From the NCBI GenBank assembly GCA_016200005.1, contig JACQFP010000013.1, positions 62,001-126,000 of the forward strand: a DNA stretch of 64,000 nt. Direction: 5' to 3'. Shown here one piece after another: positions 14,462-20,150 of the stretch. The position numbers and the translations under genes were made by a program. Below the pieces are notes generated by a model that did not search any database, was not told the DNA's origin, and saw only the letters and a list, made by a program, of their open reading frames with translations. The stretch comes from Verrucomicrobiota bacterium. GTDB lineage: Bacteria; Verrucomicrobiota; Verrucomicrobiia; Limisphaerales; PALSA-1396. Each line of letters begins with the position of its first letter. The stretch's first letter is position 1.

Positions 14462-16027
14462 TTACTTGGCAAATTCCACACAGCGGGTTTCACGAATCAC
14501 CACAATCCGGATTTGGCCCGGGTACTGCAATTTCTCCTCGATTCTCCGGGCAATGTTTCGCGCCAGCGCGAAAGCTTCGTCATCGTCAGCCCGGTCCGGT
14601 TCGACGAACACGCGCAATTCACGGCCCGCCTGAATGGCGAAGCATTTTTCCACGCCCGCAAACGACCGGCCGATGTTTTCCAGGTCGCCCACGCGCTTCA
14701 GGTAAGTGGTCATCGTCTCGGAGCGCGCTCCCGGTCGCGACGCGCTGATGGCATCCGCCGCGCTGACCAATGTTCCCAACGGACCGATTGGCGGGACTTC
14801 GTTATGGTGGGACGCCACGCCATTGACCACCGCGTCGCACTCCCCGTAGCGCTTGATCAATTCCGCGCCGACGATGGCGTGCGCGCCTTCCACTTCATGA
14901 CTGACTGCCTTGCCGATGTCGTGCAGCAGCCCGGCCCGCTTCGCCTGGGCGATGTCGAGGCCCAACTCCGCCGCCATCAATCCCATCAGGTGCGCGACTT
15001 CCACGGAGTGGTCGAGGACGTTTTGAGAGTAACTGTGTCGAAAGCGCAATCGGCCCAGCAGTTTGACAATCTCCTGATGCATCGGCGGCAGGCCGGCCCT
15101 GAGCACGGCCTCTTCACCGGCGCGGATGATGGTTTCATCCATTTCCTGGGTGACTTTGGCGACGATTTCTTCGATGCGGGTCGGGTGGATGCGTCCGTCG
15201 AGAATCAAGCGCTCCATCGCGCCGCGGGCGATTTCGCGCCGCACCGGATCAAAACCGGAAAGCACCACCGCGTTGGGGGTGTCATCAATCAGCACAGTGA
15301 CGCCGGTGGCGGCTTCAAAGGCGCGGATGTTGCGGCCTTCCCGCCCGATGATCCGCCCTTTGATTTCATCGCCGGACAACGCCACGGTCGCGGTGCTGAT
15401 TTCAAAGGAGTGTTCGCCCGCGTAACGCTGAATGGCCAGGCTGATGATGCGCCGCGCCTTTTCTTCCGCGCGGGTCTGGGCTTCCTCAAGAATATGATGG
15501 CTCAGGTTGCTTGCCTCGCGCAATGCCGCCTGCTCCGCTTCCTTCATGACCCACGCGCGCGCCTCGGCTTCACTCATGCGTGAGAGGGCCTGTAATTGTT
15601 CGCGCCGTAAGCGCGTCAGTTCGTTCAGCTCTTGTTGTCGGGTTTCCAGCGCTTGCGCCTTTATTTCAAGAGCCGCCATTTGTTCGCGCAACGTTTTCTC
15701 CGCCGCCACCACGCCTTCCAGTTGGCGATTGATCAGGGCATCGCGCTCATTGAGGCGGTGCTCGAGTTCGTTCAGTTCCTGCCGTCGAGTGATGAAGGAG
15801 TGTTCGGTCTGTTCGCGGAGTTTGAGCGCTTCTTCGTTGGCGCTCAGACGGGCTTCGCGCAAGAGGGCTTCGGCCTCGCGGCGCGCAGCTTCGATGCCGG
15901 TCTGCGCTTGAAGGGATCGCGACGCCTCCCAACTGTGATGTTTCCACCACAGCAGGAGATAACACAACCCGGCGCCGCCTGCGAAAAAGGCGACACCTTC
16001 CGCCCAGATATTGGCCACCAAAATCAT
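14462..16027 (-). CDS. rny: Ribonuclease Y
   Basis: A 521-residue membrane-anchored endoribonuclease that initiates mRNA decay. An N-terminal membrane segment ('VAFFAGGAGLCYLLLWW') precedes a long coiled coil (about 40-190), a KH RNA-binding domain with 'GRIIGREGRNIRAFE' (about 218-232), and an HD domain with 'LLHDIGKAVSHEVEGAHA' carrying the metal-binding His-Asp pair (about 365-385). Length and order match the family. The ATG at 16027 overlaps the stop of the fau gene (ATGA), so it is the third gene of rarA-fau-rny; a start further upstream would run deeper into fau. Confidence 0.95.
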   Translation of the reverse strand: MILVANIWAEGVAFFAGGAGLCYLLLWWKHHSWEASRSLQAQTGIEAARREAEALLREARLSANEEALKLREQTEHSFITRRQELNELEHRLNERDALINRQLEGVVAAEKTLREQMAALEIKAQALETRQQELNELTRLRREQLQALSRMSEAEARAWVMKEAEQAALREASNLSHHILEEAQTRAEEKARRIISLAIQRYAGEHSFEISTATVALSGDEIKGRIIGREGRNIRAFEAATGVTVLIDDTPNAVVLSGFDPVRREIARGAMERLILDGRIHPTRIEEIVAKVTQEMDETIIRAGEEAVLRAGLPPMHQEIVKLLGRLRFRHSYSQNVLDHSVEVAHLMGLMAAELGLDIAQAKRAGLLHDIGKAVSHEVEGAHAIVGAELIKRYGECDAVVNGVASHHNEVPPIGPLGTLVSAADAISASRPGARSETMTTYLKRVGDLENIGRSFAGVEKCFAIQAGRELRVFVEPDRADDDEAFALARNIARRIEEKLQYPGQIRIVVIRETRCVEFAK

Positions 16028-16626
16028 TCCAAAACCGCGCGCCGGCTGCCGACCTTCTGCCAACGCGTCGGGGTCAAGATGCAACTTAAACGTATGTCAT
16101 GCGGCTCGACTGGGATTGTGCCAATGATCTGTTGATCGAAAGCCACTCCGCACGTCGTTCCGTGATGATTCGCCAGCCACCGGTCATAAAATCCTTTTCC
16201 CCGGCCCAACCGGCGTCCATTCAGGTCGAATCCTACACCCGGAACCAGAATCAAGTCCAGCCGGTTTAATGGTATTTCGGGACACGGGTCAGCAGGCTCG
16301 CGCACGCCAAACTGTCCGGGTTGAACCTCTTTGGCCGGTTCCCGAATCACGCGCGCGACAAAACGATTCTGATCGGGGACAAAACGAGGCAGGGCGATCG
16401 TCTTGCCGGCGGACAAGCCGTCCGCAACCAGCGGCCAGACATCCGGCTCATCCGGCAGCGGCGCGTAAAACAGAATGGCTCTCGCCTGCTGCCAAACTTC
16501 CTGCTGTTCCAATCGCGCACAAATCCGTGCGGAAGCGACTGTTCTTTCATCGGGTGACAGTTGCCGTAGCTTCGAGCGAACTTCGGCTCGGAGCGCCGTT
16601 TTCAATTCCTGAATCGGGGCGCTCAT
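16024..16626 (-). CDS. fau: 5-formyltetrahydrofolate cyclo-ligase
   Basis: 200 residues. It converts 5-formyl-THF to 5,10-methenyl-THF using ATP, rescuing folate from a dead-end form. Family features: N-terminal 'LKTALRAEVRSKLRQLSPDERT', the middle 'FYAPLPDEPDVWPL', and the ATP/folate-site signature 'GVGFDLNGRRLGRGKGFYDRWL' in two parts near residues 135-155. The ATG at 16626 overlaps the rarA stop and its own stop overlaps the rny start, both as ATGA, implying coupled translation. In many bacteria this gene lies next to the 6S RNA gene. Confidence 0.94.
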   Translation of the reverse strand: MSAPIQELKTALRAEVRSKLRQLSPDERTVASARICARLEQQEVWQQARAILFYAPLPDEPDVWPLVADGLSAGKTIALPRFVPDQNRFVARVIREPAKEVQPGQFGVREPADPCPEIPLNRLDLILVPGVGFDLNGRRLGRGKGFYDRWLANHHGTTCGVAFDQQIIGTIPVEPHDIRLSCILTPTRWQKVGSRRAVLE

Positions 16627-18008
16627 TGCTTGTGCGCTTGCCCGCTCAACTTGGCTTCGGCAATCAACGCGCGCCACTTCTCCACCCGCTCCTTGATTTT
16701 CTTTTCTGCGCCTTGATCCGTCGGTTCGTAATAACGTTTGACGGCGCCCAAGTAATCCTGGGGTACGAAATGACCGGGGAAAGTGTGCGCGTATTGATAA
16801 CCCTCGCCATGTCCCAATTTTTTCGCGCCCGCATAATGTGCGTCGCGCAAGTGTTCCGGGACGGCCAGCGTGCGCCCAGCTCGGACATCTTCCAGCGCCG
16901 CGTCAATGGAGGTGATGCTCGTGTTGCTCTTGTTCGCGGTGGCGATGTAGATGGCGGCCTCGGCAATCGGAATCCGCGCTTCGGGCCAGCCGATGAACTC
17001 TGCCGCTTGATGGGCTGCATTCGCCAGGATGAGCGCCATCGGGTCGGCCAAACCCACGTCTTCGGCGGCGCAAATGACGATGCGCCGTGTGATGAAGCGC
17101 GGGTCTTCACCGGCATGAATCATTTTGGCCAGCCAATACAGTGTCGCGTCAGGGTCGCTGCCACGCATCGATTTGATGAACGCCGAGATGGTGTCGTAAT
17201 GCGCGTCGCCATCGCCATCATAGACAATGGCCTTGCGCTGGATGCTTTGTTCGGCAACGGCCAGATTGATGTGAATCACACCGTCCCGGTCCGGTTCGGT
17301 GGTGAGGGCGGCAATTTCCAACGCGTTCAATGCCTTCCGCGCATCGCCGTCGGAAATTGTGGCCAGGTGTCGCAAGGCATTTTCGTCCGCGTGAATTTTC
17401 AGATGGCCCAGACCGCGCTCGGAATCGACGAGCGCCCGCTTAATCAGTTCACAAATCTCCTTTTCCGTCAACGGTCGCAGCTCAAAGATCTGAGAGCGCG
17501 ATACCAGCGGCGAGTTGACGAAGAAGAAAGGATTGTGGGTTGTCGCTCCAATGAGGCGGACATTGCCGTTCTCCACGTCGGGCAGGAGGACATCCTGTTG
17601 CGCCTTGTTGAAACGGTGGATTTCGTCGATGAACAAAATTGTAGCCTGGCCGGTGTTGGCCAGGCGATTGGCTGCCGCCGAGAGAACCCGCCGCATGTCG
17701 GCCACGTTGGATTCCACCCCGCTCAATCGCTCAAACTTGTTCCTGGTCTGGCGGGCGATGATTTGGGCGAGTGATGTTTTGCCGGTGCCGGGCGGGCCGT
17801 AAAAGATCAGGGACTGGATGCGGTCGGATTCGATTGCGCGTCGTAACAACTGTCCGGGGCCGAGCACGTGCGTTTGCCCGACGATTTCCGCGAGATTGCG
17901 CGGACGCATCCGGGCTGCCAGCGGCGTGGCAGAAAATGGCTTCGTTTCTCCGGCGGTCGGAGCGCCAGTCGTTTCGGGCGGGGGCGCAAACAAATCATCC
18001 CGTGACAT
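16623..18008 (-). CDS. rarA: Replication-associated recombination protein RarA (MgsA)
   Basis: A 461-residue AAA+ ATPase of the clamp-loader/RuvB type that acts at stalled replication forks. Visible motifs: 'RPRNLAEIVGQTHVLGPG' near the N-terminus, Walker A 'GPPGTGKTS' (about 70), Walker B 'LFIDEIHR' (about 123), sensor 'IGATTHNPFF', and the C-terminal RarA region ('YAHTFPGHFVPQDYLG'). I use the ATG at 18008; another ATG three codons upstream is possible and neither has a strong ribosome-binding site. First gene of an overlapping operon with fau and rny. Confidence 0.95.
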   Translation of the reverse strand: MSRDDLFAPPPETTGAPTAGETKPFSATPLAARMRPRNLAEIVGQTHVLGPGQLLRRAIESDRIQSLIFYGPPGTGKTSLAQIIARQTRNKFERLSGVESNVADMRRVLSAAANRLANTGQATILFIDEIHRFNKAQQDVLLPDVENGNVRLIGATTHNPFFFVNSPLVSRSQIFELRPLTEKEICELIKRALVDSERGLGHLKIHADENALRHLATISDGDARKALNALEIAALTTEPDRDGVIHINLAVAEQSIQRKAIVYDGDGDAHYDTISAFIKSMRGSDPDATLYWLAKMIHAGEDPRFITRRIVICAAEDVGLADPMALILANAAHQAAEFIGWPEARIPIAEAAIYIATANKSNTSITSIDAALEDVRAGRTLAVPEHLRDAHYAGAKKLGHGEGYQYAHTFPGHFVPQDYLGAVKRYYEPTDQGAEKKIKERVEKWRALIAEAKLSGQAHKQ

Positions 18009-18041
18009 GCATATCATTTACCAGTTGTGTGCGGGTTTACC

Positions 18042-18075
18042 AAAAACAAAAAAGCCCGACTTTGATGGTCGAGCT
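18042..18075 (-). terminator. Intrinsic terminator upstream of rarA
   Basis: On the minus strand: an 8-bp stem AGCTCGAC / GTCGGGCT (one G-U), loop CATCAAA, followed by TTTTTTGTTTTT. It ends a transcript arriving from upstream of rarA. Confidence 0.7.
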
Positions 18076-18100
18076 TCAACTTGATTCTACCTTGGGCAAC

Positions 18101-18220
18101 AAAAAAATACCCCACCGTAATGCCGTGTGTAACAGTTCCTTTGAACTACTAGGGAACAGGTGGAACCCGATCGATTGTTTTCGACTTCCAGTGAAGGCCT
18201 GTCGGCCATAACCGAAATAG
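18101..18220 (-). ncRNA. Candidate structured RNA (6S-like?) upstream of rarA-fau
   Basis: The minus strand from about 18220 reads through possible closing pairs: TATTTCG with the later GGGGTA region, and GCCG with CGGC. Internal hairpins are CTTC-ACTG-GAAG and GTTCC...GGAAC, and the stretch ends GGTGGGGTA followed by seven Ts. The closing stem is better on this strand because G-U pairs become A-C mismatches on the other. There is no ORF. The neighbours rarA and fau are classic neighbours of the 6S RNA gene ssrS, which is why I suggest it; the length to the first T-run (about 120 nt) is short for 6S, while reading to the terminator at 18042 gives about 180 nt. The exact ends are a guess. Confidence 0.3.
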
Positions 18221-18450
18221 AGGCTCCGTGTTTTTTTAACTACGGTTCAAGGACTTTGTTGCTGATCACGAACATGGCAGGGTAAATCCAAAGTCATTTC
18301 CAAAGAACGCGGCGGTGGGAGCGGATTCTCTAGTTCAATATCCCAATCGCCCTTGCTGGATAAAGTTTGAACCGGATGTCGCCATTTTACAAGCTGGATT
18401 TTCAAAAATCTGCGCGCGGTTCTTAGGCAGGGTCGATTGCTTGATGATGT

Positions 18451-18484
18451 GAAGCCGGGTGCTTATCCGTGGCTTCGTTTTTTT
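18451..18484 (+). terminator. Intrinsic terminator with no upstream gene
   Basis: Stem gaagcc / ggcttc (18451-18456 and 18471-18476) with a GC-containing loop, followed by GTTTTTTT. It points to a plus-strand transcript in this gap, upstream of and separate from the gene at 18639. Confidence 0.6.
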
Positions 18485-18638
18485 AAGCGCTTTTGTCACC
18501 CTTCCATGGTAAGAGTGATCCATAGTTCGTGTTAATGTGCTTGATTGGCCTGAGAGTAGCTCAGGTTTGAAGCAATGCAGATATGCGACCTTGGCGCGAG
18601 CCGTGACGCGTGGTTGATAAGTTTTGACTGAAGCTGGC

Positions 18639-20150
18639 ATGAGAAACCTGCAAATCATAAGGCGACCATTCCGACCCTTCGCCTTGGCTGGATTGGGCCT
18701 TCTGATGGCGTTGAACGCTCCTGCGGCTGGCACCGTCACCGTCTGTAACGAAGCGAGCTTGGACGCGGCATTGACCAATGGCGGAACGGTGGCATTTGCT
18801 TGCGACGGCACGATCACCATCACCTCTACAAAAGTAATTTCTTTGGACACCGTCTTGGACGCCACCGGCCACACGGTCGCGATCAGCGGGAACAACTCCG
18901 TCCGCCTTTTCACCGTCAACCCGGCGGTCAACCTCTCCGTTTATAACCTGACGCTGGTCAACGGTCGGAGCACCAATGGCGGCGCCATCTACAACAGTGG
19001 CACGTTGGTTGTATCCAACAGCGCGCTCTCCGGAAATTCGGTCAGCAACTCGGCTAGCGGATTAGGAGGCGCCATTTACAATAATAATCTCGCCACTCTC
19101 ATCGCAGTGAACTCCAGCTTCTTCAATAATGGTTGCCGGGGAGGCGACGGGGCGAACAACACGGCGGTCAACGGCACCGGTTTCCCCGGCCAGGTCGGTG
19201 CGGGTGGCGGCATTTACAATGACGCCGGAAACATCAGTGTGACCAATTGCACTTTCGCAGGCAACACCTCGACCGGAGGCCGCGGCGGTAATGGCGGCGA
19301 CGCTTTTTTGATCCTGCCGGCAGGCAACGGCGGGGCCGGAGGCGCGGCCGCTGGCGGTGCGATTTCGATTGGGGGTGGAGTGTTGACTGTCGTTAACAGC
19401 ACCTTTGTCAGCAATAGTTGCGCGGGTGGCAACGGAGGCACCAACGGCAACGGTGGCGGTGGCGTCCGCGGCAACGGCGGCGATGCCAGCGGAGGCGCCA
19501 TCGACCACAGCGGGATTTCAGCAAATTTGATCAATGCGACTTTCTTCGGCAACGGATGCACTGGTGGAACCGGCAATACCAATGGAAATCGTTTGGGAGG
19601 AAATCTTCGGAACGGCGCCGCCAGTTTGATGACGTTGAAGAACACCATCGTGGCTGGAAGTTCCGCCGGCACCAACGCTTCCGGCGCGATCACTGACGGC
19701 GGAAACAACATCAGTTCAGACCTGAGTTGCAATCTTACCAATGTCGGCAGTTTGAATAATACGGATCCTCGCTTGGGCCCGTTGGCCGATAATGGCGGCC
19801 CTACGCTCACCAAGGCATTGCTGCAAAACAGCCCGGCCATTGATGCCGGTAACAGCGCCGTCGCTCTGCCGACTGATCAGCGCGGCTCTCCGCGATTTGG
19901 CGCGTGCGACATTGGCGCTTTCGAAATGACGCCGCCCACAATTCTTTCATCCGTCTATCTTCCGAATGGTCACCTGCGTTTGCAATGTTCTGGAGTCATC
20001 GGCCCAAGCTACTTCATTCACGCCTCAACGAACCTGGCGAGTTGGGTGCAGTTGACGGATTTAGTCCCACTCACCAACCGGATCTTTGACATTGAAGATG
20101 CGAATGCTTCCAACTTTTTGATTCGGTTCTACCGGTTGCAGGCTCACTAG
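18639..20150 (+). CDS. Secreted beta-helix protein with choice-of-anchor Q region
   Basis: 503 residues. Signal peptide: 'FALAGLGLLMALNAPAAG', cleavage near residue 33. The body has repeated 'GGAIYNSGTLVVSNS' and 'NGGRGGNGGDA'-like glycine/asparagine-rich rungs, typical of parallel beta-helix proteins of the polymorphic outer-membrane-protein type. Near the C-terminus is 'NGGPTLTKALLQNSPAIDAG...DQRG...CDIGAFE', the choice-of-anchor Q motif found in exported proteins. It ends with a short module 'YFIHASTNLASWVQL...IRFYRLQAH' shared in pattern with other secreted proteins here. Surface-exposed; adhesion or polysaccharide binding is possible, but no activity is evident. The start at 18639 is the ATG directly before the signal sequence. 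Confidence 0.82.
   Translation: MRNLQIIRRPFRPFALAGLGLLMALNAPAAGTVTVCNEASLDAALTNGGTVAFACDGTITITSTKVISLDTVLDATGHTVAISGNNSVRLFTVNPAVNLSVYNLTLVNGRSTNGGAIYNSGTLVVSNSALSGNSVSNSASGLGGAIYNNNLATLIAVNSSFFNNGCRGGDGANNTAVNGTGFPGQVGAGGGIYNDAGNISVTNCTFAGNTSTGGRGGNGGDAFLILPAGNGGAGGAAAGGAISIGGGVLTVVNSTFVSNSCAGGNGGTNGNGGGGVRGNGGDASGGAIDHSGISANLINATFFGNGCTGGTGNTNGNRLGGNLRNGAASLMTLKNTIVAGSSAGTNASGAITDGGNNISSDLSCNLTNVGSLNNTDPRLGPLADNGGPTLTKALLQNSPAIDAGNSAVALPTDQRGSPRFGACDIGAFEMTPPTILSSVYLPNGHLRLQCSGVIGPSYFIHASTNLASWVQLTDLVPLTNRIFDIEDANASNFLIRFYRLQAH

Follow-up and report, generated by a model that had tools for sequence, protein, structure and literature searches.

A 6S RNA gene with a predicted boxA-bearing leader in a Limisphaerales bacterium and its relatives

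6S RNA reversibly silences the main RNA polymerase and is among the most widespread bacterial regulators, with a biogenesis that is known from few models. The boxA element is best known from ribosomal RNA operons, where the antitermination complex is made up of NusA, NusB, S10, NusG, SuhB and S4. As described for E. coli and B. subtilis, 6S RNA acts by sequestering the RNA polymerase holoenzyme and is released by pRNA (PMC11077062); its gene is followed by fau in E. coli and adjoins rarA in lactic acid bacteria (PMC8414754). For rRNA leaders, it has been proposed that boxA bound by NusB–S10 anchors the leader at the polymerase and that boxC then pairs with the emerging trailer, and the gap between boxA and boxC is 18–19 nt in enterobacterial rRNA leaders (PMC10250234). 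In this work, we compare these systems with a 6S RNA locus of the Limisphaerales whose predicted leader carries a boxA.

The locus lies within a 64-kb window (that is, the whole stretch of DNA that was analysed), in a gap at 18018–18623 between rarA on the minus strand and a plus-strand open reading frame that starts at 18624. A sequence-only reading had guessed that this gap holds a 6S RNA gene, and this proved correct: a full-length 6S RNA gene (ssrS) occupies the minus strand from 18286 to 18105. The search that this reading had proposed, with Rfam model RF00013, was decisive, with a score of 82 bits (gathering threshold 46.4) over model positions 1–187 of 187 and E-values of 1.3e-14 in the 64-kb window and 1.6e-16 in the gap alone. 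No other match in the window reaches the Rfam gathering level, a permissive Rfam search of the gap alone returned nothing above chance besides 6S, with other families far below their cut-offs, and the 6S match is the only one found in the genome (6.5 Mb) to which the window belongs. The gene itself is an ordinary member of a known family, with the following parts:

18105–18286, minus strand: 6S RNA (ssrS), 182 nt, 5' end at 18286; supported by the RF00013 match, conservation and covariation
18276–18282, minus strand: 5' strand of the 6S closing helix, CCCTGCC; helix 1 of the Rfam structure
18110–18116, minus strand: 3' strand of the 6S closing helix, GGTGGGG, then a T-rich tract; from the alignment-projected structure
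18242–18254, minus strand: predicted pRNA template, by analogy with E. coli; product RNA 5'-ACGGUUCAAGGAC, starting opposite U45

The foldable minus-strand stretch that had first drawn attention to the gap is the 6S RNA itself, which in isolation folds with a minimum free energy of −56.7 kcal/mol (z = −2.9), better than all 200 shuffles. Conservation across relatives, whose absence would have counted against the guess, was found in the order and beyond: there is a 6S match in 116 of 146 genomes of the same order (102 of these above the cut-off) and in 76 of the 145 genomes of a phylum-wide sample. For covariation, 28 members of the order were aligned and the Rfam structure from the window's own match was projected onto the alignment, so that 87.5% of the alignment cells pair. 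Two-sided changes occur in 22 of 47 pairs, compared to a mean of 12.6 in shuffles and 5–14 in slid controls, and the covariation score is 0.223, compared to 0.131 for shuffled alignments and 0.04–0.06 with the partners slid; none of 500 shuffles was as good as the real alignment, which places the covariation beyond every shuffle and slide control. The long double-stranded rod with a large central single-stranded bubble is thus borne out by covariation and by the folding z-score.

Within the 28 aligned sequences of the order, the closing-helix cores CCCT and GGGG are invariant, as is T45, and the predicted template strand CCTTGAACCGTA, on the 5' side of the bubble, is nearly so. Position U45 is where we presume the pRNA to begin, by analogy with U44 of E. 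coli, which makes 18242–18254 the predicted template site. In two genomes of the order (G067 and G128), we also observed a second, weaker 6S match on another contig, and these may be second 6S copies.

The genes and the terminator downstream of 6S lie on its own strand, in the order terminator, rarA, fau and rny:

18042–18077, minus strand: intrinsic terminator between 6S and rarA; hairpin 18077–18051 and T-run
16623–18017, minus strand: rarA (MgsA), replication-associated recombination protein A; start codon at 18017; Pfam MgsA_C (E 3e-68) and AAA
16024–16677, minus strand: fau, 5-formyltetrahydrofolate cyclo-ligase; Pfam PF01812 (E 2e-43)
14462–16084, minus strand: rny, RNase Y, a possible processing enzyme (role in 6S processing hypothetical); Pfam RNase_Y_N (E 5e-33)

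Pfam matches confirm that rarA and fau directly follow, as the sequence-only reading had said, and its use of this synteny as a cue for 6S was sound, the neighbours known from E. coli and from lactic acid bacteria both being present here. The arrangement is shared by relatives: rarA is directly downstream of 6S on the same strand in 40 of the 70 loci from the order, fau comes after rarA in 20 of 22 rarA-bearing order loci with long flanks, and rny comes after fau in many relatives; in the wider phylum, rarA follows 6S in 15 of 29 loci. The gap had also been described as free of genes, and there is no convincing protein gene between rarA and the open reading frame at 18624; a protein-coding reading of the gap was rejected, its open reading frames being short, overlapping on both strands and without support.

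Terminators had been claimed for both strands, and the claim stood for the minus strand, where the hairpin at 18077–18051 has a z-score of −3.2 and a terminator occupies the equivalent place in the same-genus relative L003. The sequence of the latter is different and its place the same, which suggests that 6S and rarA form units of their own here. Across the order, 18 of 70 loci have a separate terminator hairpin at most 120 nt after 6S (0–1 in shuffles), and in 42 of 70 the closing helix runs straight into a T-rich tract (9 or more T of 14); the tract that follows GGGG in relatives has a mean of 8.8 T of 14, compared to 4.6 further downstream. On the plus strand, the claim held only in part: a terminator-like hairpin at 18450–18477 followed by seven T (to 18484) is present but weak (z = −1.95, with 12 of 200 shuffles as good), and the same-genus relative shows no counterpart to it. 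For these two reasons, the idea that a plus-strand RNA gene ends at this hairpin was rejected.

Two observations concern the edges of the gap. No plus-strand gene lies before the hairpin at 18450–18484, which may protect the gene that starts at 18624 against antisense transcription from the direction of 6S; that open reading frame (18624–20150) encodes a predicted secreted protein of 508 aa, Gly-/Asn-rich and repeat-like, with no Pfam match. At the other edge, TTGGTA-N17-TAAATG (18045–18018, minus strand) lies directly after the terminator T-run and could be rarA's own promoter, and a similar sequence can be seen by eye in relatives.

Upstream of 6S are a predicted boxA leader and promoter, both absent from the sequence-only reading:

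18298–18308, minus strand: boxA GTTCTTTGGAA, 11 nt upstream of the 6S 5' end and within the predicted 5' leader
18364–18392, minus strand: predicted 6S promoter, TTGTAA (18392–18387), 17 nt, CAAACT (18369–18364); at the position of the relatives' promoter

More than roughly 35 nt upstream of 6S, sequences from the same genus hardly align, and GTTCTTTGGAAATGACTTTG(G/A)A beside 6S is conserved. Across the order, [GT]NTCTTT occurs within 80 nt upstream of 6S in 66 of 70 loci, compared to a mean of 4.5 and a maximum of 10 in dinucleotide shuffles, and the strict form GNTCTTT occurs within 60 nt in 64 of 70 loci, or 36 of 40 families. In these loci, matches to TCTTTG concentrate 20–40 nt before 6S when the transcribed orientation is read, and no peak of this kind is seen for the reverse complement. 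The first motif column is G in 64 of 65 cases, and the 6S-associated motif across the order reads G(T/C/A)TCTTTG(G/A)(A/C)A, at a distance of 3–33 nt (median 17) from the 6S 5' end and a median of 21 nt from the first C of the closing strand. As the bare pattern is common, with hits across the window at chance level, the evidence is its conserved position and not any single match.

We identify this motif as boxA by comparison with the rRNA leaders of the same order. There, GCTCTTTGAAAATTGA, GTTCTTTGAGAATTGG, GCTCTTTGAAAATTGG and GCTCTTTGAAAGTTGA lie about 120–150 nt before 16S, a G[CT]TCTTTGANA-type motif is found in the 16S leaders of the order relatives L077, L083, L087, L093 and L099, and related copies of boxA lie in the spacer before 23S in order relatives. 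The gammaproteobacterial consensus is GYTCTTTAANA (PMC5725501). The 6S boxA often has G or C after TCTTTG, whereas the rRNA boxA has A there. The comparison rests on relatives because the assembly yielded no 16S operon for the window's genome; NusB-family genes are encoded in the genome. Within the same order, boxA occurs within 80 nt upstream of none of 30 tmRNA genes and of 2 of 30 RNase P RNA genes, and it is therefore not a general feature of stable RNA genes.

The distribution of the motif is wide but has gaps. Four of the 40 families of the order are without it, and in the other orders of this class none of seven loci has a boxA within 80 nt, so 6S does not depend on boxA everywhere. In other classes of the phylum, the motif precedes 6S in 14 of 22 loci, and the association of boxA with 6S would be either an old trait that some members of the phylum have since lost or replaced, or one that was gained more than once. 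A locus labelled Desulfobacterales (L145, 3906–4110, minus strand) has a 6S RNA that reaches the Rfam threshold and is immediately preceded by GATCTTTGACAATG; here the association may extend beyond Verrucomicrobiota or the bin may be contaminated. It is the only one of four pattern matches labelled as other phyla to reach that threshold, the other three being L130, L154 and L170.

The promoter is seen most clearly in relatives, where CTTGAG lies mostly 30–45 nt before boxA in 52 of 64 loci (1.4 expected) and a pair resembling TTGAGA-N16/17-GATAGT precedes boxA in 38 of 64 (0.9 expected). With the promoter upstream of it, boxA falls inside the predicted 5' leader and would be transcribed, lying downstream of the predicted start site. 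The pair at this position in the window, TTGTAA-N17-CAAACT, is a weak match that did not pass the pair test. In three loci from other orders of the class (L111, L126 and L128), the place of the boxA leader appears to be taken by a TTGACN-N17-TAGNNT promoter-like pair that directly adjoins the 6S 5' end; compared to the boxA-bearing loci, this suggests two ways of making 6S within one class.

With a probability of about three in four, by our own estimate from sequence comparisons, 6S is transcribed here as a 5'-extended precursor with a boxA leader that recruits NusB–S10 and an rRNA-type Nus complex. RNA polymerase would start at the upstream promoter, and NusB–S10 would bind boxA in the nascent leader and, with other Nus factors, form an rRNA-type antitermination complex. 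This complex would keep Rho off the untranslated transcript and retain the 5' strand of the closing helix close to the RNA exit channel until its 3' partner has come out, allowing the long-range terminal helix to form, after which the 6S precursor would be trimmed at its 5' end. Mature 6S would then mimic an open promoter and sequester the primary-sigma holoenzyme as growth slows, and would be released by synthesis of the predicted pRNA, with rarA–fau expressed as a separate unit after the terminator. Given the median gaps of 17 nt from boxA to the 6S 5' end and 21 nt to the closing strand, the first long-range strand of 6S takes up roughly the position that boxC has in rRNA leaders. Nevertheless, boxA could act on something other than folding. 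The wider proposal, that 6S in Limisphaerales and several other Verrucomicrobiota classes is the product of a boxA-dependent rRNA-type Nus complex, which tethers the closing helix to the polymerase by its 5' strand, chaperones the long-range helix and ties the 6S level to the factors of rRNA synthesis, is in our judgement an even bet.

The proximity of the motif to the 6S 5' end, and the promoter-like pair that abuts 6S at the motif's place in some loci of the class's other orders, would also suit an ordinary 6S gene in which GNTCTTTG is a promoter DNA element or a regulator site and not an RNA signal. This we consider unlikely, as a distance of 3–33 nt to the 6S 5' end is too variable for the core promoter of a fixed start, relatives have a separate and well-conserved promoter upstream of the motif, the motif is the boxA of rRNA leaders in the same order, and its peak appears in one orientation only. 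If it is an RNA signal, it might still direct an RNase such as RNase Y to trim the 5' end of the 6S precursor, instead of acting through Nus factors, and this would fit both the 5'-extended precursor that the promoter position implies and the presence of rny downstream in the same gene cluster. However, we know of no RNase that recognises TCTTTG, and the identity with rRNA boxA, together with the near absence of the motif before tmRNA and RNase P RNA, points to Nus factors, so that a trimming signal is given very little weight.

A boxA could also work in the opposite direction and lower 6S expression instead of raising it, as boxA repression has been reported for suhB (PMC5725501). The spacing of boxA here, however, resembles the rRNA arrangement. 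In addition, 6S is a short, untranslated and normally abundant RNA, and a repressive boxA seems improbable to us.

A full-text search of the open-access literature found no report linking boxA with 6S RNA; a paper on invE regulation in Shigella sonnei that mentions both terms appears to be unrelated, and the survey of boxA targets in gammaproteobacteria states that non-coding RNAs were not considered (PMC5725501). As far as the open-access literature goes, the boxA-bearing 6S leader is new. Recruitment of a Nus complex by a conserved boxA in this leader would make 6S a non-rRNA, non-coding target of that complex and would tie 6S control to the machinery of ribosome synthesis. With about 180 nt, 6S would also provide a small natural test of boxA tethering as a chaperone of long-range helices, an effect that is difficult to separate out in 16S rRNA, and boxA combined with rarA synteny should help to find 6S genes that fall below the Rfam threshold.

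Compared to 6S RNA elsewhere (E. coli ssrS upstream of fau, B. subtilis 6S-1 and the lactic-acid-bacterial 6S near rarA), the gene described here has the same full-length model match, closing helices, central bubble, conserved predicted template strand and rarA/fau context. It differs from E. coli ssrS, which has no exact (mismatch-free) boxA upstream, in its predicted boxA leader and in a predicted promoter set back from the 6S 5' end. With the rrn leader, it shares the core of the 16S-leader boxA of the same order and a similar spacing to the following strand of a long-range helix, but its boxA precedes a 0.18-kb regulatory RNA and not an rRNA operon, with no boxB or boxC identified. As in suhB and other gammaproteobacterial gene leaders (PMC5725501), boxA here lies in the predicted 5' leader of a non-rRNA gene; whereas those targets are protein genes, the one described here is 6S RNA.
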